46,258 nucleotides of DNA, taken from contig JAQSXR010000014.1 of assembly GCA_029256575.1 (NCBI GenBank), forward strand, positions 1 through 46,258, given 5' to 3'. Position numbers and translations under genes: made by a program. How positions within the stretch are numbered: position 1 is the first letter of the stretch; each line of letters begins with the position of its first letter. The notes beneath the pieces were generated by a model. That model did no database searches. It was not told the origin of the DNA and saw only the letters and a program-made list of their open reading frames with translations. Source of the stretch: Clostridiales bacterium. Its GTDB lineage: Bacteria; Bacillota; Clostridia; Lachnospirales; JAQSXR01. Below, piece by piece: positions 1-35,218 of this stretch.

Positions 1-99
1 AAATATACAATACATAATGTGTTAAATATACAATACATAATGTGTTAAATATACAATACATAATGTGTTAAATATACAATACATAATGTGTTAAATATA
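1..99. repeat. 23-bp perfect tandem repeat, at least 4 copies, cut by window edge
   Basis: Four identical head-to-tail copies of a 23-base unit (AAATATACAATACATAATGTG plus TT) occupy 1-92, and a fifth begins at 93 and stops after AAATATA where the gltX terminator starts. Because the first copy begins at base 1, the array probably continues outside the window. There are no spacers, so this is a minisatellite, not a CRISPR array. It lies just beyond the gltX terminator. Confidence 0.95.
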
Positions 100-119
100 G
101 GCACAACTGTCGTTGTGCC
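100..119 (-). terminator. gltX terminator hairpin
   Basis: A perfect 8-bp inverted repeat, GGCACAAC (100-107) and GTTGTGCC (112-119) with a 4-base loop, sits 12 bases past the gltX stop. On the minus strand it is followed by TATATTT, a short U-rich tail, so it is probably a rho-independent terminator of modest strength. Confidence 0.75.
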
Positions 120-131
120 CAATAATTAACA

Positions 132-1586
132 TTAAGATAATTTTTCAATTCCCTTACGTATTCTATAAAGAGATTCTTCTTTCCCCAATACATCCATTAT
201 TTCAAATGCTCCAGCAGGTGAAGTTGGTTTTCCAGATACTGCTGTTCTTAATGGCCATAGAACAAATCCATTCTTCAACCCATTTTGTTCCGCATATCCA
301 AGAATCAAGTTATGCAACGCATCTATTGACCAATCTTCTTGTTTTTCTAACAATTCTAATTCATTTCTTAGTGTTTCAAGTGAAGATTCTGCTGTAGTTT
401 TCATTTTCTTATGTGTGTATATGTCAATACTATACTCCGGTAATTCATTAAAAAATTCAACTAATTCTGGAATATCAACCATTACATCAATTCTTGTCTT
501 AACTAACTCAGATATAATTTTTAGATCATATGGTTTATTAATAACCTTCTCTATATATGGTTTTGCGATTTCAAAGAACTTATCTTCTTCCATTGCCTTA
601 ATGTATTCACTATTCATCCACTTAAGTTTAGTAATATCAAATACTGCAGGTGCTTTCCCCATATGTTTATAATTGAAATTCTTTATTAATTCTGTAAGAG
701 TAAACATTTCTTGATTCGTCTCTGGTCCCCAACCTAATAGTGCAACAAAATTGACTACAGCTTCTGTCAAGAATCCTTGTTCTAATAAATCTTCATAAGA
801 TGAATGACCACTTCTCTTTGATAATTTTTGATGTTCTTCATTTGTAATAAGCGGACAGTGGATGTATATTGGATAATCCCATCCAAAAGCGTCATATAAT
901 CTATTATATTTAGGAGTTGAGGATAAGTACTCATTGCCTCTAACAACGTGTGTAATCCCCATCAAATGATCATCTACTACATTCGCAAAGTTATATGTTG
1001 GAAATCCGTCTGACTTAATTAATACCATGTCATCTAATTCCGAATTGTCAACTGTAATCGTTCCATAAATTTCATCTGTGAAGGATGTCGTTCCTTCAAG
1101 TGGAATATCTTGTCGTATAACATATGGCATTCCGGCAGCAAGATTTGCTTCAACTACATCTTTCGATAACCCAAGACAATGCTTATCATATTTAAAAATA
1201 TCCATTTCTTTATCTGAATCAGATTTAAGGCTTTCTAATCTTTCTTTCGTACAGAAACAGTAATAAGCCTCACCCTTTGCTACCAATTGCTTCGCATATT
1301 CAAGGTAAATTCCGCTTTTTTGTCTGTCGCTCTGAACATATGGGCCAAATCCCTTGTCCTTATCTGGACCTTCATCGTGGATTAAACCTGTTTTCTCAAG
1401 AGTTCTATATATAATTTCAATTGCACCCTCTACAATACGTTCTTGATCTGTATCCTCGATTCTCAATAAAAAATCGCCGTCTTCGTGTTTTGCGATTAAA
1501 TACGCATATAACGCAGTACGTAAATTTCCTACGTGCATTTTACCTGTTGGACTTGGAGCAAACCGTGTTCTAACTTTTTTATCCAT
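132..1586 (-). CDS. gltX: Glutamyl-tRNA synthetase
   Basis: Charges tRNA-Glu (and possibly tRNA-Gln, in species using the amidotransferase route) with glutamate in the cytoplasm. The 484-residue protein has the class I signature at the N-terminus ([14 protein letters not shown], the HIGH motif appearing as HVGN near residue 18) and the KMSKS-type loop as KLSKRSG in the middle, followed by the usual alpha-helical anticodon-binding half; length is normal. I place the start at the ATG at 1586, because an AGGAG lies 8 bases upstream. A GTG nine bases further upstream is in frame but sits right against that AGGAG. It has its own promoter (TTGTAA-17-TATAAT) and terminator, so it is monocistronic. 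The call is very secure. Confidence 0.97.
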
Positions 1587-19368: not shown

Positions 19369-19400
19369 AAATATCCCCATGTGTTCTCATGGGGATATTT
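19369..19400 (-). terminator. Terminator of the Rnf/Eet-like operon
   Basis: AAATATCCCCATG (19369-19381) and CATGGGGATATTT (19388-19400) form a perfect 13-bp stem with a 6-base loop, followed on the minus strand by a run of T. It lies 10 bases after the last stop of the redox operon and is a classic rho-independent terminator. Confidence 0.95.
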
Positions 19401-19410
19401 AGTATCATAC

Positions 19411-19926
19411 TTAGTTACATTTATGATTGTTAATATTTAATTTTACCGTTAACCTTTTTGTTATTTCTGCTCCAAGCATTCCAATTAATAATCCTGTTAC
19501 TGCGCCAGTTACAAGTAAGACTGGTAGATAATATGCAATGCCTCTATTCTCAACAATCAAAATAGCTGCTATAATCTGCCCAATATTATGGGTAACACCA
19601 CCTACAATACTTACTCCTACTATACTAAATAGTTTCGTTTTCTTACAAAGAATCATAGCTATACAGCTTAATATTCCTCCAGCTAAACTGTAAATCATAC
19701 TAAATAAGCTTCCAAAGGTAAGTCCTACCAAGACAATTCGCAGTACCGATAATCCGAATGCTTGCTTACTTCCTAACACATATAAAGCAATTAATACTAC
19801 GATATTTGCTAATCCAAGTTTCATACCTGGTATTGGTAAAGGAATTGGAACTAAGCTTTCAACATAACTAAAAATGAAGGCCAAAGCAATCAACAATCCA
19901 TAAGTGGCTGTTTTTTTTGAAGACAT
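19411..19926 (-). CDS. eetB: Gx transporter family membrane protein (EetB-like)
   Basis: A 171-residue protein with about five membrane helices, of the Gx transporter/heptaprenyl-diphosphate-synthase component I family (PF07456). Hallmarks are PIPLPIPGMKLGLANIVVL, the glycine-rich SLAGGILSC and VGGVTHNIGQ. The same family supplies EetB in the flavin-based extracellular electron transfer loci of Listeria and lactobacilli, where it stands next to EetA, as here. A NusG_II gene and Rnf genes precede it in one operon, with 22 bases to the stop of the former. AGGAGG lies 5 bases before the ATG. A role in passing electrons or moving a flavin or quinone precursor is an inference; its biochemistry is unproven. 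Confidence 0.75.
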   Translation of the reverse strand: MSSKKTATYGLLIALAFIFSYVESLVPIPLPIPGMKLGLANIVVLIALYVLGSKQAFGLSVLRIVLVGLTFGSLFSMIYSLAGGILSCIAMILCKKTKLFSIVGVSIVGGVTHNIGQIIAAILIVENRGIAYYLPVLLVTGAVTGLLIGMLGAEITKRLTVKLNINNHKCN

Positions 19927-19948: not shown

Positions 19949-20314
19949 TCAGTTTACAATTCCATCAATTTCATTGCTTTCGCTACTCTCAATTTCAACC
20001 ACAACTTTATTCGGTAAGCATACTATGGTTTCATTATCAAAATGGATATCACTTTGATGTACGCATATTAAATCCGGACAACTTGCGTCCTTCATACTTG
20101 CAACTCCGTTTTCAATTACAAGAAGATTATATTCTCCATCTTCACCCTCAATATTCAGAGTAGTATCCGTGTTAAGATCAAGTGTTTTATATGGTTTCCC
20201 ATCAATGGTTATAACCACTTTGTCTCCTTCAGATTTAGTTAGATTAAAGAAAACAATAGTTCCAAATGCAAATACTAATATTGCTATGATTAAAATAATA
20301 TCATTTCGTTTCAA
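19949..20314 (-). CDS. eetA: NusG domain II protein, membrane-anchored (EetA-like)
   Basis: A 121-residue protein with one N-terminal membrane helix (about 5-24) and a small extracytoplasmic beta domain of the NusG_II family: VVITIDGK, YNLLVIENGVASMKDASCPDL and ETIVCLPNKVVVEI. Three conserved cysteines (79, 84, 99) and His86 face outside. It corresponds to EetA of Gram-positive extracellular electron transfer clusters. The start codon is TTG at 20314, set by an AGGAG 7 bases upstream; no in-frame ATG competes. It lies 15 bases after the RnfE-like stop and just before the EetB-like gene. Redox use of the cysteines, as a metal site or disulfide, is speculative. Confidence 0.75.
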   Translation of the reverse strand: MKRNDIILIIAILVFAFGTIVFFNLTKSEGDKVVITIDGKPYKTLDLNTDTTLNIEGEDGEYNLLVIENGVASMKDASCPDLICVHQSDIHFDNETIVCLPNKVVVEIESSESNEIDGIVN

Positions 20315-20329
20315 TGTATTTCTCCTTGC

Positions 20330-21097
20330 TTAAAACGCAGTTAATATCATATATACGATTCCTATTGAAATTAACTCAATTGGTAACTTCTTAAATGCAT
20401 TGCCAAGAGATGAAAAAATCAATTTATATCTTATTGATACAATTATGAAAATAGGAATGAATATACCAATAACAAAGTTAATAATATCTCCTACATCATT
20501 TAATTCAAATGGTCTAAATGCTAAAACAACCGGTACAATAACTAAAAGACTATTTAATGAATAAACACGTTTCTTAATTATTGCGTTTACAAGAGCAAGT
20601 GCAGCCCCTGCAAACAAGAATCCTATCATTATACTTTGAAAGTTCTCTGTCATAAAAGATAAATCTGCAATTTTGAATCCAAAGATACTTCCTATCGCAC
20701 AAAATTCTCTAATCATACCTATTACAATAAAGCATGCAAAAGCAATGGCACTTTCATAAAGCATAACATTAACATTCTCTTCCGCATCTTTGGTTAATAG
20801 GTGTTTTACAATTAATAGACCGATCATTAATTGCAAAAGCATAATTGTTGTGTTCATTTCCATAGGTACTATTTTTATAAATACAATCTGAAATACAGCA
20901 TAGCCAACAGACATAACTGATATAAAGACAGATATCCTTAGCAAGCCAAGTTTTATATGCCCTAAACAATCCTTTACTACCCAACCAAGTGTAGTAAGAA
21001 AAACAATTAATATACCAGTGATTAATGCTTCCTTCATATTTTTCGAAAATAGAATCATTGCGAGGGCAAATGCCTCAATTGGATACTTTATCTTCAT
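20330..21097 (-). CDS. RnfE/RnfA-like membrane subunit, divergent and extended
   Basis: The 255-residue protein has about eight or nine hydrophobic segments. Its first 175 residues align by eye with RnfE/RnfA (PF02508): a helix pair at 5-40, RISVFISVMSVGYAVFQIVF where RnfE has its third helix, and the block IGMIREFCAIGSIFGF matching the RnfE IREILGNGTIFGY region, then GFLFAGAALALVNAI at the usual RnfE end. About 80 residues follow that RnfE lacks. The two Cys that hold the intramembrane [2Fe-2S] cluster in RnfA/RnfE (GLCP and TNC positions) are missing; its Cys are 44, 122 and 133. The start at 21097 is set by GGAGG 5 bases upstream. It sits where rnfE sits in rnfCDGEAB operons, but no rnfA or rnfB follows. 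Confidence 0.65.
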   Translation of the reverse strand: MKIKYPIEAFALAMILFSKNMKEALITGILIVFLTTLGWVVKDCLGHIKLGLLRISVFISVMSVGYAVFQIVFIKIVPMEMNTTIMLLQLMIGLLIVKHLLTKDAEENVNVMLYESAIAFACFIVIGMIREFCAIGSIFGFKIADLSFMTENFQSIMIGFLFAGAALALVNAIIKKRVYSLNSLLVIVPVVLAFRPFELNDVGDIINFVIGIFIPIFIIVSIRYKLIFSSLGNAFKKLPIELISIGIVYMILTAF

Positions 21098-21129
21098 GGT
21101 AACCTCCAACATTTATTTAATCCGTAGAT

Positions 21130-22140
21130 TTACTTTCCGCTAGCATATCCTTTAATAAAATTGTAAGCATTGTTTATACCATTAATCATACCTTTAGAAG
21201 ATATAGTAGCATAAGTTACCGCATCAACTTTTGTTGCTGCAGGACTTTCAGTTACTGCTCCTGCAGTTTCAGTAGTTGCACCATTTGATGCTAGAACTAA
21301 TCCTTTTTCTACTAAATCTACGAAATTACTTACGGTTATACTAACACCTGCAACTGAATCTGACTTTCCTTGATCATTAAGAACGATACCCTCTGTAGAT
21401 TGATTTTCAATTACGTTAGCTGCTAACGCATCTGCTTGTTCTTTCCATGTTGGGTTTCCTTCTACCATTACGTATTTACCTACTGAAGATAAGTAGCTCT
21501 TATATTCGCCAGCTTGGTTCATTGAGTCCCAAACAACTGATGTAATTGCTCCATTTTCAACAACCATTGTCAACATATATAAATATCCTTTGTCATCTAC
21601 CGCATCTGCTTCAACTTTGTATATACCGTCTACCAATACTGTAGAATCAGTTGGGTTTGATGCCTCTACTGGGTCTTCTGTTTCACTCTCTTCTGGTAGT
21701 TCCATACCTTCAAAATAAACAGGAGCTGTGATTCCATTAAATTGATTTAAAAATTCTGGTTCTTCAATCTTTGATCCTAAATTAGCTGTTTCTTTATGTT
21801 CTTTTACTACTACAGAAGTTATTGTAGTAGCATCTGTATCGAAATACACATCCATAATAATATCTCCACCGTAGCCTGCTTGAGAAGCAGTAACCACATA
21901 GCCTACAAATTCTCCTGCTTTATCTGAAAGTTTAGCTGCTGCTTGAATTCCTTCTGCCCCAGCTACATCAATATCTTCTAAATCATATTCGATCGCTGGA
22001 GTAGTATTTTCAGTAGTTGTAGTTGTTGCGCCATCATTACCATCTTTCGTAACTTCTTTCGTTGCAAAAATAATTACAAATGCAAGTATTGTTACAACTG
22101 CTAATGCTATTAAACCTGTAATTCTATTATCTTTTTTCAT
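21130..22140 (-). CDS. rnfG: RnfG-like flavoprotein with a second nested FMN-binding domain
   Basis: A membrane-anchored extracytoplasmic protein (helix about 8-26, then a Thr-rich linker), 336 residues against about 200 for ordinary RnfG. The first FMN_bind domain starts at about 75 (FVGYVVTASQAGYGGDI, KEHKETANLGSKI), but its closing motif, normally D..TGAT, appears only at the very end as DAVTYATISS (Thr312). Between them (about 165-285) lies a PplA-like FMN_bind repeat (DGIYKVEADAVDDKGYLYML ... SDSVAGVSITVSNF). Thr312 should carry covalent FMN attached by ApbE; the expected Gly is Tyr here. The start is the second of two ATGs; the first, at 22152, overlaps the ribosome binding site and the rnfD stop. 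Electron carrier on the outer membrane face. Confidence 0.85.
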   Translation of the reverse strand: MKKDNRITGLIALAVVTILAFVIIFATKEVTKDGNDGATTTTTENTTPAIEYDLEDIDVAGAEGIQAAAKLSDKAGEFVGYVVTASQAGYGGDIIMDVYFDTDATTITSVVVKEHKETANLGSKIEEPEFLNQFNGITAPVYFEGMELPEESETEDPVEASNPTDSTVLVDGIYKVEADAVDDKGYLYMLTMVVENGAITSVVWDSMNQAGEYKSYLSSVGKYVMVEGNPTWKEQADALAANVIENQSTEGIVLNDQGKSDSVAGVSITVSNFVDLVEKGLVLASNGATTETAGAVTESPAATKVDAVTYATISSKGMINGINNAYNFIKGYASGK

Positions 22141-22145
22141 TTTCT

Positions 22146-23117
22146 TTACCATCCTTCATTTTGTTTGTCTTTTACGCCATAAACATGAGTTTTTTTAATT
22201 CTTTCAAAAAATCCTATAAAACAATTAGCTGCCAATATACCAAAAGCAACTCCTTCTGGATATCCACCCCAAACTCTGATTCCTGCAGTTATTATACCTG
22301 CTAAAACAGCTAACATTAACTTCCCTCTTGCAGAAACAAATGCATAATCGGTTAGCATATAAAACGCTCCCAATATAAGGCCTCCGCCCAACAAGTTGGT
22401 CATAATGTCACCTGTGAATAATCCGTCTCCTCCGAACACAAAAGTAATTGCAATCACAGTAGCAATGTAAATAATTGCTGCTTTTGCATTTACAATTCCA
22501 CGGTAACACATATAAATAAATCCTATCAGCAGTAGCAATGCACTCGTTTCTCCAATTGCACCCGGAATATTGCCAATAAACATATCCCATGTTGAGAATT
22601 GAGTAATTTCTTGTCCACCTTTAAGCATACTTAATACCGTTGCTGATGTAACTGAATCAACTCCACTATGGAAAGTCGTAACATATTGCATTACTTGCGT
22701 AGGCCACATTACCATTATAAAGATTCGACCCATTAATGCCGGATTTGCAAAATTACTACCTATGCCACCAAAGAATTGTTTTACGACTATAATCGCAAAC
22801 ATACTTGCAACTACTGCTACCCATATTGGTGTTGTTACTGGTAAGTTAAATGCTATTAAAATTCCTGTCACGACAGCACTAAAATCTCCTATCGTTGATT
22901 GTCTTCTAACTATCTTTTGCCATATAAATTCTGATATTACACAAGAGGCTACGGATGCCGCTACGAGATAAAGAGATCTTATTCCAAAAAAATAAAATGC
23001 TCCTAACAATGCAGGAATCAAAGCTATTGCAACATCTTGCATTATGATACTAGTAGTAGAAGGTGTCTTAATATGAGGGTTAAGTTTCGGCATATGTTCT
23101 AATTTTGTTGCCTTCAT
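22146..23117 (-). CDS. rnfD: RnfD-like membrane flavoprotein subunit
   Basis: A 323-residue protein of the NqrB/RnfD family with about nine or ten membrane helices. Recognisable blocks: PHIKTPSTTSIIMQDVAIALIP, GDFSAVVTGILIAFNLP, GGIGSNFANPALMGR, IGETSALLLLIGFIYMCYRG, GGLILGAFYMLTDYAF and GGYPEGVAFGILAANCF. The flavin-attachment motif is D154-S-V-T-S-A-T160; Thr160 is the predicted FMN-phosphothreonine. It should pass electrons from the cytoplasmic side (RnfC) to RnfG and, in true Rnf, help drive Na+ or H+ transport. It starts one base after the rnfC stop, with an AGGGGTG site, and overlaps the upstream ATG of rnfG. Confidence 0.92.
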   Translation of the reverse strand: MKATKLEHMPKLNPHIKTPSTTSIIMQDVAIALIPALLGAFYFFGIRSLYLVAASVASCVISEFIWQKIVRRQSTIGDFSAVVTGILIAFNLPVTTPIWVAVVASMFAIIVVKQFFGGIGSNFANPALMGRIFIMVMWPTQVMQYVTTFHSGVDSVTSATVLSMLKGGQEITQFSTWDMFIGNIPGAIGETSALLLLIGFIYMCYRGIVNAKAAIIYIATVIAITFVFGGDGLFTGDIMTNLLGGGLILGAFYMLTDYAFVSARGKLMLAVLAGIITAGIRVWGGYPEGVAFGILAANCFIGFFERIKKTHVYGVKDKQNEGW

Positions 23118-23118
23118 A

Positions 23119-24474
23119 CTATTTCACCCCTCTTTCTCTTTTTCGACGATTTATTTCTCCTCTAGCTTCCATAACTCGATAAGCTAATTCTATCTTAGCC
23201 GGGCACACATAGGAACAAGAACCACAGCCAATACATTCAGTAGCATAAAGTTTTTCGCATATGTCAATATTTTCATCGATATATGCATGATTAATCTTAA
23301 AAGGTACTATTCCTGCAGGACAAACTCTAGCACACGCTTCACAACGTATACAAGGTGATTCCCCTTCATTATTGTTTTCAAGTACTACTATTCCTGAAGA
23401 CGTCTTAGTTACACTGCCTTCAAGCTCTTCTGCCTTAACATTAATAGCAAGACAAGCCCCTGTCATAGGACCACCTAGAATAAGTCTATTATTGGTTACT
23501 TCAAATCCACCTGAAAGTTCTATTAAGTCACTGAACTTCGTTCCAATTGGAACAAGATAATTACGTGGTTTTTTTACTCTTCCTGTAATCGTAATACATC
23601 TTGAAACTAAAGGTATTTGAGCAAAAATCATATCTGCTATAGCTTTAGCCGTAGCTACATTTGAAATAATAATTCCTACATCTGCAGGCAAACCACCCAT
23701 AGGTACTTCAATTCCTGTTACTGCCTGTACAAGTTGGCGTTCTCCTCCTTGAGGATATTTCGTCGGAAGTACTTTAACCTCCAGTGAAGATGATACATCG
23801 CCCAAAAGTTTTTTCAGATGCTCTGCTGCATCCTTTTTATTATCTTCAAGACAAATAATACCTTTTGTTGCATCTGCTGCCTTTACAAGTAAGTTCGCAC
23901 CGTTTACTATTTCCATACCATATTCAAGCATTAATCTGTGGTCACATGTTAAAAAAGGCTCACACTCGGCTCCATTAATTAATACATATTGAATTTTCTT
24001 ATTCGTTTCATACTTAATATGAGTCGGAAATCCCGCTCCACCCATACCAATTAATCCGCTGTCTTTCATAGCTCCTATGATTCTTTCTTTCGAAATATCC
24101 GTAAGATCAATAAGTTTATTGCTATACTCTAATTCATTTTCTATTAATTTGGTTTCTTCCGCCTGAATAACACAAACCGTGGTTTCCTGTCCTTTTGCAT
24201 CCTTAACTATTTTAATTTCTATAACAGTCCCATTCATACTTGCATGGATTGCTGCTGCTCCAAAGCCTTTTGGTTCTCCTATAATTTGACCTATTGTAAC
24301 ATGGTCACCTTGTTTTACCACGACTTGGCAGGCACTTCCTCCAGACTGTTTCATAGAAATCTCAACAACTTCTGGTATATATTTGAATATAGATTCTTGA
24401 TTACTCAATCGCTTATCCAATCCGTCAGTAGGATGAACGCCTCCAGGAAATTTGGAGAATTCTTGAAATTTCAT
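23119..24474 (-). CDS. rnfC: RnfC-like NADH-oxidising iron-sulfur subunit
   Basis: The 451-residue peripheral subunit on the cytoplasmic face. The N-terminal barrel-sandwich domain (about 10-105) precedes the FMN/NADH domain (GMGGAGFPTHIKY at 143-155, NGAECEPFLTCDHR, LEDNKK, PQGGERQLV), a SLBB region, and two [4Fe-4S] motifs at the C-terminus: Cys375-378-381-385 and Cys414-417-420-424. All cofactor residues look intact, so it can plausibly take electrons from NADH. It is the first gene of the operon and has AGGAGG 9 bases before its ATG. There is no RnfB in this operon, so the usual ferredoxin branch is not encoded here. Confidence 0.95.
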   Translation of the reverse strand: MKFQEFSKFPGGVHPTDGLDKRLSNQESIFKYIPEVVEISMKQSGGSACQVVVKQGDHVTIGQIIGEPKGFGAAAIHASMNGTVIEIKIVKDAKGQETTVCVIQAEETKLIENELEYSNKLIDLTDISKERIIGAMKDSGLIGMGGAGFPTHIKYETNKKIQYVLINGAECEPFLTCDHRLMLEYGMEIVNGANLLVKAADATKGIICLEDNKKDAAEHLKKLLGDVSSSLEVKVLPTKYPQGGERQLVQAVTGIEVPMGGLPADVGIIISNVATAKAIADMIFAQIPLVSRCITITGRVKKPRNYLVPIGTKFSDLIELSGGFEVTNNRLILGGPMTGACLAINVKAEELEGSVTKTSSGIVVLENNNEGESPCIRCEACARVCPAGIVPFKINHAYIDENIDICEKLYATECIGCGSCSYVCPAKIELAYRVMEARGEINRRKRERGVK

Positions 24475-24743
24475 TCTTTTGGTCCTCCTAAGTGTTTTTT
24501 GTTAATTTTTTAACTTATGAAAGTATGTATATCCCTTATTTTCTCCAAGAAAAACATACCTATTCCATTTTTTATTATATCACGTACAATCTTCAAAATC
24601 TATACCAAATTTTTCTATTAATAATTCCAATATATATGATTTTTAAGCTACTAGCTTGACAATTTTATTATACTTCTTTACAATCATACTGATTACTTAT
24701 ATTACTTACAAACTTGACCTTTCACATATATAAGGAGAATTAT
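24475..24743. promoter_or_regulatory. Divergent control region of the Rnf/Eet-like operon and apbE
   Basis: An intergenic space of 269 bases with two outward promoters. Towards rnfC there is an extended -10, TGATATAAT (plus 24574-24582), with a poor -35, giving a leader of about 95 bases. Towards apbE there is TTGACA (24656-24661), a 17-base spacer and TACAAT (24679-24684). Shared control of the flavoprotein complex and its flavin transferase is likely from this layout. I see no clear operator palindrome or riboswitch. Confidence 0.65.
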
Positions 24744-25796
24744 ATGATTACTACAATACAAAGCAATAAACGTTTTGCTACAATACTCATTATTCTATTA
24801 ATTACAATATTAACACTTTCCTCTTGCAAAAAACCAAATGATAACAATACATCCGAAAATTCATATATAACGAAATCATCCTTTAAGCTTAATACCATTG
24901 TTACAATAACTGTATATGATTCTAAAGACGAGAATTTATTAGAAGAGAGTTTGAAAATATGTGATAAATATGAATCAATCTATAGTAGAACACTCGATAC
25001 AAGTGAATTATACAAATTGAACAACGGCCTACTTCCTTCTTCTGATAACGGTTTTCAAATATCAGACGACCTTGAGAGTGTATTAAATTATGGTTTATAC
25101 TATAGCGCTTTATCAAAAGGAAACTTTGATATATCAATAGCCCCCCTATCCTCTCTTTGGGATTTTACATCACTTACCCCAGTAATCCCTTCACAAGAGC
25201 AAATAGATAAAGCATTAACAAAAGTGAATTATAAAAATATAAATTTAACTAATAATTCTATTTCATTTGCAGAAAAAGGAATGGCTTTAGATTTAGGTGC
25301 AATTGCGAAAGGATATATTGCAGATGAAATTAAAGAATATCTTCTATCGAAAGGCGTTAAGAGTGCAATGATTAATCTTGGTGGAAATGTTCTGTGTGTC
25401 GGCAATAAAATTGACGGCTCCTCCTTTAAGATAGGAATTCAAAAACCATTTGCTGATAGAAATGAGCTTGCTGCTATTATGGAGATTGAAGATATGTCTG
25501 TTGTTTCTTCTGGAATTTATGAACGTTTTATTACTGTAGATGGCAAACAATATCATCATATTCTTAACCCTTCAACTGGTTACTCCTATGAGAATAATCT
25601 TATATCCGTAACGATAATCTCTCCTTATTCTGTAGACGGAGATGGTCTAAGTACAAGTTGCTTCGCATTAGGTCTCGAAAAAGGTATCGAATTAATTAAT
25701 AGTCTAGAAGGAATTTATGCCGTTTTCATAACGGATGATTACGAATTACATTATTCAGAAGGATTTGCCGAAGCAATAAAAATATCGAATCCATAA
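24744..25796 (+). CDS. apbE: FAD:protein FMN transferase, lipoprotein ApbE
   Basis: Attaches FMN covalently to Thr of exported flavoproteins, using FAD. The 350-residue protein has a lipoprotein signal (lipobox LSSC, Cys25), so it acts outside the membrane. ApbE motifs: FKLNTIVTITVYD, ISIAPLSSLWDF, LDLGAIAKGYIADEI, MINLGGNVLCVG, VSSGIYERF, HHILNPSTGYS and DGLSTSCFALG (metal-binding DG.ST). The start at 24744 is set by AGGAG 6 bases upstream; a TTG 30 bases earlier is in frame but has no such site. It is divergent from rnfCDG, whose RnfD and RnfG products carry candidate attachment threonines, so those are the likely substrates. The hallmark residues appear intact. Confidence 0.95.
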   Translation: MITTIQSNKRFATILIILLITILTLSSCKKPNDNNTSENSYITKSSFKLNTIVTITVYDSKDENLLEESLKICDKYESIYSRTLDTSELYKLNNGLLPSSDNGFQISDDLESVLNYGLYYSALSKGNFDISIAPLSSLWDFTSLTPVIPSQEQIDKALTKVNYKNINLTNNSISFAEKGMALDLGAIAKGYIADEIKEYLLSKGVKSAMINLGGNVLCVGNKIDGSSFKIGIQKPFADRNELAAIMEIEDMSVVSSGIYERFITVDGKQYHHILNPSTGYSYENNLISVTIISPYSVDGDGLSTSCFALGLEKGIELINSLEGIYAVFITDDYELHYSEGFAEAIKISNP

Positions 25797-25840: not shown

Positions 25841-26803
25841 TTATATGTGTATGCTAATAGGTTTAATCAGTATAGACGGTCCGTAAATCTCTAAACTAGG
25901 TCTTTGCGGTAATATAACCGAATTGCTTCTTAGACATTCAAGATAAGGTTCAAATGATAGTAATAAGCTCTCATAGTATTTTGTATGTCCTGTTTTCCTT
26001 AGAAGATTTATACTATCACCCTCATCAATGATCTTACAAACTTTTCCCCATATCTTACATTTGCATGAGCAATTATCATACATATGTAGATGCCTTACTT
26101 CAAATTCATGCACGCATATATTTAATACGACTGCACAATTATTAGCCCAAATGATTATGTCTTCTGTACCACATTTTTGAAGTTCTAAATACAATTTTTT
26201 CAACATTCTATTTATTATTTCAAATTTCAAATCCCCTATAAAGTTTGATTTTGATAATATTCCATCCAACGTTTCCGCTGAGTAGGCCTCAATTATATCG
26301 ATTAATTTCAGTATATATCCTGAAATTGATATTGAAGTCATCTCCCCACAAAACTCAACAAAATCTCCAGAACTACAATAGTCCGAGTCTATTTTTTTCG
26401 TAATTCTCAATTCTTTCATCTTATTCCATACAGGATGAAAAAACACGCAGCTAGATGAATAATCAATATTTGTGGAAAAGAATGTTTTCTTATGTTCAAT
26501 ATCTTTTTTATTTATCCTTTTATCTTCTGATGCAAATTCTGCATCTGTGTAGTTTTCTAATTCAATACTTTTTAATGTATAGCAATCTTGTTCTTCCAGT
26601 ATATGTGCTTCTTCATCTGTATTATTAAAATGACCTTCTTTTTCTTTTTTATCTCTAATACCAAGTTTAAACCGATTGTTATTGGAACTGTCGACACTAT
26701 ATCGAACCGTCTCACTTTCAATAAATCCTTCAATTACTGTTGAATGCAAGTCTTTTATAAACCCTTGGTCTAGATACAAGAGAAACACTAACTCATCTAA
26801 CAT
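25841..26803 (-). CDS. Hypothetical protein, possibly DUF6414-like
   Basis: I do not recognise this with confidence. The 320-residue soluble protein begins MLDELVFLLYLDQGFIKDLHSTVIEG, an opening resembling the DUF6414 family (a Y-L-D strand followed by a helix, then a serine- and asparagine-rich linker). Residues 45-110 are charged and probably disordered. The middle (about 130-190) contains GDFVEFCGEMTSISISGYILKLIDII, which looks like a small beta-barrel. The C-terminal third has several Cys (NCSCKCKIWGKVC) that could bind metal. The start at 26803 is set by GGAG 6 bases upstream. It is a single gene, convergent with apbE. Function unknown. Confidence 0.6.
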   Translation of the reverse strand: MLDELVFLLYLDQGFIKDLHSTVIEGFIESETVRYSVDSSNNNRFKLGIRDKKEKEGHFNNTDEEAHILEEQDCYTLKSIELENYTDAEFASEDKRINKKDIEHKKTFFSTNIDYSSSCVFFHPVWNKMKELRITKKIDSDYCSSGDFVEFCGEMTSISISGYILKLIDIIEAYSAETLDGILSKSNFIGDLKFEIINRMLKKLYLELQKCGTEDIIIWANNCAVVLNICVHEFEVRHLHMYDNCSCKCKIWGKVCKIIDEGDSINLLRKTGHTKYYESLLLSFEPYLECLRSNSVILPQRPSLEIYGPSILIKPISIHI

Positions 26804-26882
26804 GACTTTCTCCAATATTGTTTTATTATATAATATGATTTATATATTAAAATTATTGGATTAAACTAAAATATATTAACAA

Positions 26883-34051: not shown

Positions 34052-35218
34052 ATGTTCGAATCACTTATATCAACAAATAGTGTAAGTTTAATTCTTGTTT
34101 TTTTTGAAGGGATTATTTCCTTTTTTTCTCCATGTGTAATTCCACTTATCCCTGTATACATTAGTTTCTTGGCTGGGAATGCGAAGCAGGTCGGAGAAGA
34201 TGGATTTATTACTTACCAAAGAAAAAAAGTATTCGTTAATACCGTAAGTTTTGTACTAGGAATTTCATTTGCCTTTTTTGTGTTAGGAATGTCCTTCTCA
34301 GCGTTGCGGATATTTTTCTATAGTAATAAATTGTTGTTTACTCGATTAGGTGGCATACTAATCATCATGTTAGGATTATTCCAACTCGAAGTTTTTCATA
34401 TAAAATTATTGCGTAGAGATCGAAAGTTCAATCTTAATTTAGACAACAAAAAAGTTAATCCACTCCTCGCATTTATAATGGGATTTACCTTTAGTTTTGC
34501 TTGGACTCCTTGTGTTGGGCCTGCATTGTCTTCGGTACTCATTCTTGCCTCTGGTGCTAAATCTGCACTGACAGGAAATATGTTGGTATTGATATACGCT
34601 GGTGGCTTTATAATACCATTCTTGATACTAGGGTTATTTACGACTATGAATTCTTTTATCTCTCCTTCCACTAATGAAAACGAACCAGAAGATGTATCAG
34701 AGGATAAAACAGATATCGTCAATGAGGATGAAGTAATTTCGGATACACCTAAGGGTAACTTAACTTATCCAGCTCCCGATTTTACTCTTATGGATCAATA
34801 CGGAAATGAACATACCCTCTCAGACTATAAAGGAAAAGTGGTTTTCCTAAATTTCTGGGCTACTTGGTGCCCTCCTTGTCAAAAAGAAATGCCTCATATA
34901 GAAGAATTATATGCAGAATATAATTTCAACGAAGACGATGTTATTATTCTTGGAGTTGCTAATCCTAAAAGTGATGATTATCCATATAATCAAGATGTTA
35001 GCCAAGAAGAAATAAAGGAATTTTTAAAGGATAATGAATACACTTTCCCAGTTGTATTTGATGTTACCGGTGAGATTTTTAACAAATATTTTATTCAATC
35101 ATTCCCAACTACTTTTATGATTGATAAAGAAGGAAATATTAAAGGATACGTAACTGGAATATTAACGAAGGGAATCATGCAAAATGTAATACAAGAAACG
35201 TTAGATTCTGCGAAATAA
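34052..35218 (+). CDS. CcdA-TlpA fusion, thiol-disulfide redox protein
   Basis: A 388-residue fusion of a CcdA/DsbD-type membrane domain with an extracytoplasmic TlpA/ResA-type thioredoxin. The membrane part (1-205) carries the two redox Cys at Cys28 (FFSPCVIPLIPVYISFLAG) and Cys154 (FAWTPCVGPALSSV), which relay electrons from cytoplasmic thioredoxin. The thioredoxin part (about 238-388) has the active site WCPPC (Cys273, Cys276) and the cis-Pro block SFPTTFMIDKEG. Only five helices are visible before an acidic linker (205-232); the sixth CcdA helix seems missing. It should keep exported thiols reduced. AAGGAG lies 7 bases before the ATG; a CNNM gene follows after 74 bases. Confidence 0.88.
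   Translation: MFESLISTNSVSLILVFFEGIISFFSPCVIPLIPVYISFLAGNAKQVGEDGFITYQRKKVFVNTVSFVLGISFAFFVLGMSFSALRIFFYSNKLLFTRLGGILIIMLGLFQLEVFHIKLLRRDRKFNLNLDNKKVNPLLAFIMGFTFSFAWTPCVGPALSSVLILASGAKSALTGNMLVLIYAGGFIIPFLILGLFTTMNSFISPSTNENEPEDVSEDKTDIVNEDEVISDTPKGNLTYPAPDFTLMDQYGNEHTLSDYKGKVVFLNFWATWCPPCQKEMPHIEELYAEYNFNEDDVIILGVANPKSDDYPYNQDVSQEEIKEFLKDNEYTFPVVFDVTGEIFNKYFIQSFPTTFMIDKEGNIKGYVTGILTKGIMQNVIQETLDSAK

Follow-up and report, generated by a model that had tools for sequence, protein, structure and literature searches.

Among the described systems closest to the locus analysed here is the Rnf complex (RnfCDGEAB), in which Cys25 and Cys108 of RnfE ligate a membrane [2Fe-2S] cluster together with two cysteines of RnfA; mutation of the cluster ligands abolished activity in Acetobacterium woodii (PMC11889175). 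The logic of a half-Rnf is also published for two-subunit NQR/RNF-like complexes (PMC8238504; PMC11334425). In flavin-based extracellular electron transfer (EET) of Listeria, an FAD exporter binds its substrate through the subunit EetB. Homologues of EetB, which serve FAD export for ApbE in Listeria, are frequent neighbours of Rnf genes in Clostridia (PMC9973259).

Organisation of the operon

The window (the whole stretch of 46,258 nucleotides analysed here, from a gut-type Clostridia genome) carries on its minus strand, in this order, rnfC2, rnfD2, rnfG2, the gene for a distant RnfE homologue (rnfE2, protein E2), a NusG_II gene, eetB and a terminator-like hairpin (Table 1). Neither the open reading frames nor the Pfam matches of the cluster include rnfA or rnfB. 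By the same means Ndh2 was not found in the cluster or its neighbours, the cluster contains no demethylmenaquinone genes, and Rfam gave no RNA element across the window. The gene set differs from that of a normal Rnf operon, a point that was missed in the earlier sequence-only reading of this DNA. Because a complete ordinary rnfCDGEAB set is present elsewhere in the genome (L042), the window operon is a paralogue. In relatives, the NusG_II gene is found next to the C2-D2-G2-E2 operon or next to ordinary rnf (L111, with the same order; L078, L098). Further along the window, a 324-aa open reading frame without Pfam match lies downstream of apbE (25841-26815, minus strand), and a redoxin fused to a CcdA/DsbD-type membrane domain is encoded at 34052-35218 (plus strand).

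Table 1 Features of the rnfC2-D2-G2-E2 cluster, in window positions.
Feature	Position	Strand	Remarks
Terminator-like hairpin	19369..19400	-	13 pairs, then a T run; 11 bases past eetB; likely operon end
eetB homologue	19411..19926	-	PF07456
NusG domain II membrane protein	19949..20314	-	Accessory gene
rnfE2, polytopic membrane protein	20330..21112	-	260 aa; distantly homologous to RnfE, both [2Fe-2S] cysteines missing; no match in Pfam
rnfG2, membrane-anchored RnfG-type subunit	ORF 21130-22152, likely start 22140	-	With nested PplA-type FMN_bind domain
Outer FMN_bind fold, C-terminal half	21142..21234	-	Residues 307-337; Pfam 49-76; VIA-align model range 16..339
Outer motif DAVTYAT	21205..21225	-	Candidate acceptor Thr312; Tyr in place of Gly
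Inserted complete PplA-type FMN_bind domain	21268..21639	-	Residues 172-295; 2kzx, NCBIfam PplA, 3o6u_C
Inner motif DSVAGVS	21340..21360	-	Candidate acceptor Ser267 (start 22140)
Outer RnfG-type FMN_bind fold, N-terminal half	21712..21984	-	Residues 57-147 (340-aa frame); split Pfam match, PDB 7zc6_G, model strands 56-146
rnfD2, polytopic flavin subunit	22146..23117	-	Motif DSVTSAT with FMN-Thr160; retains riboflavin ligands N125 and D257
rnfC2	23119..24474	-	Retains the NADH/FMN domain and both 4Fe-4S motifs
apbE, lipoprotein-type FAD:protein FMN transferase	24714..25796	+	Divergently transcribed; likely start ATG 24744

A PplA-type domain nested in RnfG2

The sequence-only reading had described RnfG2 as a nested double FMN-binding protein with two candidate flavin sites on one polypeptide. 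All sequence elements that it quoted (KEHKETANLGSKI, SDSVAGVSITVS and DAVTYATISS) were found in the rnfG2 frame, which encodes 340 aa when read from its first ATG (minus strand, 22152-21130). The second ATG, at position 22140, is the better supported start, because relatives begin with MKNK... at this point and AAGGA lies upstream. With this start the original numbering of the acceptors as Thr312 and Ser267 is correct; they correspond to Thr316 and Ser271 in the 340-aa frame, which is used for all residue ranges below.

The Pfam FMN_bind profile matched RnfG2 in two parts, with profile positions 1-36 at residues 93-150 and positions 49-76 at the C-terminus (whole-protein E 1.5e-13), and RnfG of PDB 7zc6 aligned with residues 26-139 (overall E 3.8e-6) and again, weakly, with 307-333. 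Such a two-part match of the outer domain is far beyond chance. The stretch between the two halves matched 2kzx at residues 174-286 (E 5.6e-16) and the NCBIfam PplA model at residues 172-293 (E 2.6e-6). The NCBI rnfG model reached 62 bits, below its cut-off of 102; the insert splits the match. In an AlphaFold2 model built from 30 homologous rows (mean pLDDT 73.8; unreliable over the first 51 residues and the linkers 154-168 and 292-303), the outer halves fold together and the insert folds separately. VIA-align superposed the joined outer halves on 7zc6_G with a Z-score of 16.3 over 137 residues (model 16..339), and the insert on 3o6u_C (CPE2226) with a Z-score of 14.5 and an rmsd of 1.9 over 113 residues (model 171..294). 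Structure prediction of the outer halves had been named as a check on the original proposal, and in it the two parts form one FMN_bind fold. The split Pfam and PDB matches and the two modelled folds therefore uphold the nested reading and support two candidate flavin sites on one polypeptide.

Flavinylation-like motifs and ApbE

The insert combines the FMN_bind fold (3o6u_C, Z 14.5) with a motif that offers an acceptor Ser/Thr (DSVAGVS). The letters of the motifs had been read correctly, but the description of the inner one as non-canonical does not hold: among the PplA-type domains of the fetched loci, a sample that includes close relatives, SGVS (43) and AGVS (13) outnumber SGAT (9), and both repeats in a classic Ndh2-UbiA-PplA-ApbE locus (L096) read DAIAGVS. 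By these counts, D-x-V-[SA]-G-V-S is the norm among PplA-type domains. A fragment alignment further revealed that RnfG2 copies with one and with two inserts share the D-x-V-x-G-V-S pattern, acceptor Ser included. The outer exchange of Gly for Tyr, in turn, is real and unusual. TYAT was encountered once among about 50 sampled RnfG-type motifs, 32 of which read SGAT; Arg, Ser, Ala and other residues also occur at the Gly position elsewhere, and at the position of the outer motif all relatives but two have SGAT. The Ser in place of Gly in the RnfD motif had been taken as another sign of unusual motifs. DSVTSAT is indeed present in RnfD2, but it is no evidence of this kind, as Ser, Ala, Gln and Gly all occur at the position across 19 relatives; the ordinary RnfD of the same genome reads DGVTSVT. 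In published mutational data on ApbE, Gly-to-Ala and Ala-to-Val changes each cut flavinylation to about half, and Thr was preferred over Ser (PMC12052999). Both RnfG2 sites are for this reason plausible, but possibly weak, flavinylation targets.

The suggestion that a divergent ApbE is adapted to these motifs was rejected. The window ApbE is a full-length, ordinary member of its family (281 bits, Pfam) and, in the genome search, outscored the second ApbE copy (282 versus 221 bits). Only one ApbE is encoded in seven of the nine genomes examined, and in five of these it belongs to the cluster. In Blautia An81 (G282) it is the cluster's own ApbE that must serve the SGAT site of the ordinary RnfG as well as the SGVS sites, because the genome has no other copy.

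Number of inserts among relatives

A single insert was found in the window and in three relatives (L062, L070, L075). Most other relatives have RnfG2 proteins of 431-476 aa with two inserts, and the near-identical insert copies within several of these proteins point to a tandem duplication. In genome G747 (L111), the operon has a matching context, with NusG_II and EetB included in the same order as in the window, and an insert-free RnfG of 172 aa with the ordinary motif DGISGAT. The insert is therefore not needed for the core complex; in a joint tree of RnfC2 and RnfD2, the placement of G747 beside the window is supported by values of only 10.7/53.

Related arrangements were observed outside such operons. 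In G253, a nested two-insert RnfG (L040, 8939-10291) adjoins apbE and a NusG_II gene without rnfC2, rnfD2 or E2; an ordinary rnf operon, which contains the only RnfD of this genome, is situated about 21-23 kb from the nested RnfG gene. Beside NusG_II and eetB, L044 (8870-10426) encodes a protein of 518 aa with an N-terminal FMN_bind domain (DAVSGAT) and tandem PplA-type domains (DTVASVS). RnfG-like open reading frames of about 530 aa in other families were also considered as nested RnfGs and rejected, as those in L091 and L092 are RnfD-RnfG fusions. Both fusions lie within ordinary rnf operons; in L092, the NC motif that RnfE usually has at its second cysteine is absent.

Cofactor residues of RnfC2, RnfD2 and E2

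RnfC2 (TIGR01945, 406 bits) conserves the GMGGAGFP loop and both CxxCxxCxxxCP 4Fe-4S motifs. RnfD2 (TIGR01946, 253 bits) has 323 aa with PF03116 as its only domain; a fused PF00175 NAD domain is absent according to Pfam. Its residues T160, N125 and D257, which are equivalent to A. woodii T156, N123 and D249, are kept in 19 of 19 sequences. RnfC2 and RnfD2, the window included, each form one group versus ordinary RnfC and RnfD (support 100/100). Since the cofactor residues of both subunits are kept, a chain from NADH via FMN, two 4Fe-4S clusters, riboflavin and the FMN of RnfD to the FMN of RnfG can be complete. Judged by its predicted proteins, what is missing from the C2-D2-G2-E2 set is the ferredoxin arm.

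The relationship of E2 to RnfE is distant. None of the 21 E2 members had a Pfam match, including to Rnf-Nqr (PF02508), for which the divergent E2 of G747 gave a sub-threshold match of 17.6 bits. When an E2 profile was compared with all PDB chains, the sole match was RnfE of Clostridium tetanomorphum (7zc6_E, E 1.2e-5); against ordinary RnfE of Clostridia, it reached E 4.6e-14 in a small test set, and a two-row profile reached 2e-8 per genome. No member of the E2 family has a cysteine at the positions of RnfE C25 or C108, and the single well-conserved E2 cysteine (alignment column 62) sits elsewhere than the cluster ligands. By these profile matches and alignments, E2 is a distant RnfE without both iron-sulfur cysteines and, for lack of these ligands, a pair of RnfA and E2 could not hold a [2Fe-2S] centre. 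E2 is also about 50 residues longer than RnfE. A fusion of RnfE with RnfA was considered and is not supported, since the match to RnfE covers only the first 180 or so residues; for the remainder, no relative was detected. A structure model of E2 was of too low quality for interpretation (pLDDT 47.5), and Foldseek returned no match for it under E 1. The best VIA-align rows for this model were all NqrD/RnfE chains, with Z-scores (10.7-7.4) in the chance range for helical bundles.

Distribution and genomes without RnfA and RnfB

A genome scan with E2 yielded 22 loci, all from Lachnospiraceae or Eubacteriales/Firmicutes. The order C2-D2-G2-E2 is found in all sufficiently long loci, from Blautia, Lachnoclostridium, Merdimonas and others; apbE usually adjoins and rnfA or rnfB never do. 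E2 was present in 7 of 392 genomes of the order and, apart from the genome of the window, in none of 397 in an even phylum-wide draw. The system is therefore narrow.

Most genomes with the cluster also retain ordinary Rnf. In five of them, the isolates Lachnoclostridium An131 and An138 (G668, G669) and the metagenome-assembled genomes (MAGs) G682, G684 and G685, searches detected no RnfA/RnfE (PF02508) and no full RnfB match. Weak PF02508 matches in the two isolates were rejected as RnfA/E, as they belong to an FtsW-like protein of about 490 aa. In G668, G669 and G685 the ordinary operon is cut down to rnfCD between unrelated genes, and the genomes of the two isolates encode no FMN_bind protein besides the nested RnfG2. 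From their gene content, RnfC2-D2-G2-E2 in these five genomes must act without RnfA and RnfB. Two further genomes were dropped as evidence of such a loss: G673, in which an ordinary rnfC-rnfD-rnfG fragment occupies a 3-kb contig, and the MAG G676. With respect to the reduced operons, ordinary rnf consists of rnfC and rnfD in a Lachnoclostridium/Merdimonas-like clade (L144, 3888-6169, in G669; L145; L146), and the rnfD remaining in G669 has lost the flavinylation motif, with no D-x-x-S/T-G-A-T. This reduced rnfCD could be an orphan RnfCD pair or a remnant.

Proposed electron path and alternatives

We consider it fairly probable that RnfC2, RnfD2, RnfG2 and E2 form a membrane complex of four subunits for electron transfer, built from half of Rnf, which would act as a one-way exporter of electrons from NADH to the outside. 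The gene set, the nested folds, the cofactor residues kept in C2 and D2, the missing cysteines of E2 and, in some relatives, independence from RnfA/B are read from sequence; we infer the assembly of the complex, its use of NADH, the outward direction, the flavinylation of both RnfG2 sites and an acceptor. Electrons would pass from NADH to FMN in RnfC2 and its two 4Fe-4S clusters, then to the riboflavin and covalent FMN of RnfD2, on to the covalent FMN of the outer RnfG domain and the FMN of the PplA-type insert, and finally to an acceptor outside the membrane. This would correspond to one arm of the U-shaped path of Rnf, on which electrons travel outwards from NADH; the ferredoxin arm (RnfB and the [2Fe-2S] cluster of RnfA/RnfE) is absent. 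E2 probably serves RnfG2 and RnfD2 as a scaffold without a redox role. FAD may be supplied by EetB and FMN attached by ApbE, and zero, one or two PplA-type inserts would extend the flavin chain. No terminal acceptor was found. In An131 and An138, the inserts would have to pass electrons straight to the final acceptor or to a further protein, because these genomes have no other FMN_bind protein. Candidate partner proteins in the window genome are two lipoprotein flavin reductases that contain an FMN_bind domain (L003, 1372-3126, contig C63; L004, 97-1857, contig C4), whose motif DAVASAT has Ala for Ser/Thr and Ser for Gly.

Alternatively, C2-D2-G2-E2 could join the housekeeping RnfA and RnfB to form a normal ferredoxin:NAD+ pump in which the insert offers electrons a side exit. 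Ordinary rnfA and rnfB are indeed present in most cluster genomes, and such a bifurcated path has been proposed for RNF clusters with multi-flavinylated RnfG (PMC8238504). The cluster is nevertheless kept in the five related genomes that lack rnfA, rnfE and rnfB, and the missing ligands of E2 would leave an RnfA/E2 pair without its [2Fe-2S] cluster, which makes this arrangement unlikely. The conserved chain could also run inwards and pass electrons of an external donor to NAD+, making NADH, as RnfC and RnfD of Rnf normally work towards NAD+ and the chain is reversible in principle (PMC11889175). However, export systems are the known setting of PplA-type domains and EetB-ApbE sets (PMC9973259) and no donor-side enzyme is encoded nearby, so that we regard an inward complex as very improbable.

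A different doubt concerns the flavins themselves. The insert might be unflavinylated and have a structural or docking role, with the outer Tyr indicating that flavinylation is reduced or lost there too. Its inner motif joins the Ala-to-Val change with Ser, the outer one has Tyr for Gly, and lower flavinylation is published for Gly-to-Ala and Ala-to-Val changes and for Ser relative to Thr (PMC12052999). Against this, the acceptor Ser is kept together with D-x-V-x-G-V-S across one- and two-insert copies, and the pattern is the PplA-type norm, including in the protein beside ApbE in the classic EET locus; we therefore think a flavin-free insert distinctly unlikely. Finally, the outer Tyr and the incomplete set of Rnf genes might be read as signs of a decaying, functionless paralogous operon, an explanation that is hardly credible given that all frames are open, the gene order is conserved and the cofactor residues are kept over a deep clade.

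Comparison with known systems

If the NADH-to-outside exporter exists as proposed, gut Lachnospiraceae, Blautia hansenii included, would have an overlooked second outlet for NADH electrons, and surveys of RNF keyed to RnfB or to Pfam Rnf-Nqr would miss such a complex. Relatives with zero, one or two inserts, or with a lost ferredoxin arm, would offer a natural test of the Rnf halves. As E2 has lost the [2Fe-2S] ligands, the complex could also separate the scaffold role of RnfE from its role in sodium pumping. RnfGs with several flavins and FMN-bind folds in two parts are already published. In the papers searched, largely openly accessible main texts, no RnfA/B-free RnfC-D-G-E complex with an RnfE devoid of the cluster cysteines is described, an absence that is weak evidence. 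We see an even chance that RnfC, RnfD, nested RnfG and cysteine-less RnfE constitute an undescribed Rnf-derived class, an RnfA/RnfB-independent one-way exporter whose flavin chain is lengthened by PplA-type insertions.

With Rnf itself (A. woodii 9ERI, C. tetanomorphum 7ZC6), the window operon shares homologues of C, D, G and E, the cofactor residues of C and D and the C-D-G-E order, but it has no RnfA or RnfB, its E lacks the [2Fe-2S] cysteines and its RnfG contains an inserted domain. Multi-flavinylated RnfGs of RNF clusters (PMC8238504, Fig. 6) likewise have more than one FMN_bind domain per RnfG; those clusters were defined by the presence of RnfB, and nesting in RnfG is not described in the available part of that report. 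A first fold closed by the C-terminus, with other FMN-bind domains in between, is also seen in the 'circularly permuted' multi-FMN-bind1 proteins (PMC11334425, Fig. 3B), although these are not identified as RnfG or as parts of Rnf-derived complexes in the portion available. The flavin-based EET system of Listeria (Ndh2, PplA, EetA/B, FmnA/B) resembles the cluster in its PplA-type FMN domain, ApbE and the EetB-type FAD exporter subunit, whereas the window cluster lacks Ndh2 and demethylmenaquinone genes and has the PplA-type domain built into RnfG. The two-subunit NQR/RNF-like complexes have in common with our proposal a single transmembrane path and a proposed one-way flow from NAD(P)H to an extracytosolic acceptor. 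In these complexes, RnfD is fused to an NqrF-type NAD domain and lacks the RnfD flavinylation site, whereas the window operon has RnfC as its NADH subunit and has kept both the Thr of RnfD and a relative of RnfE.
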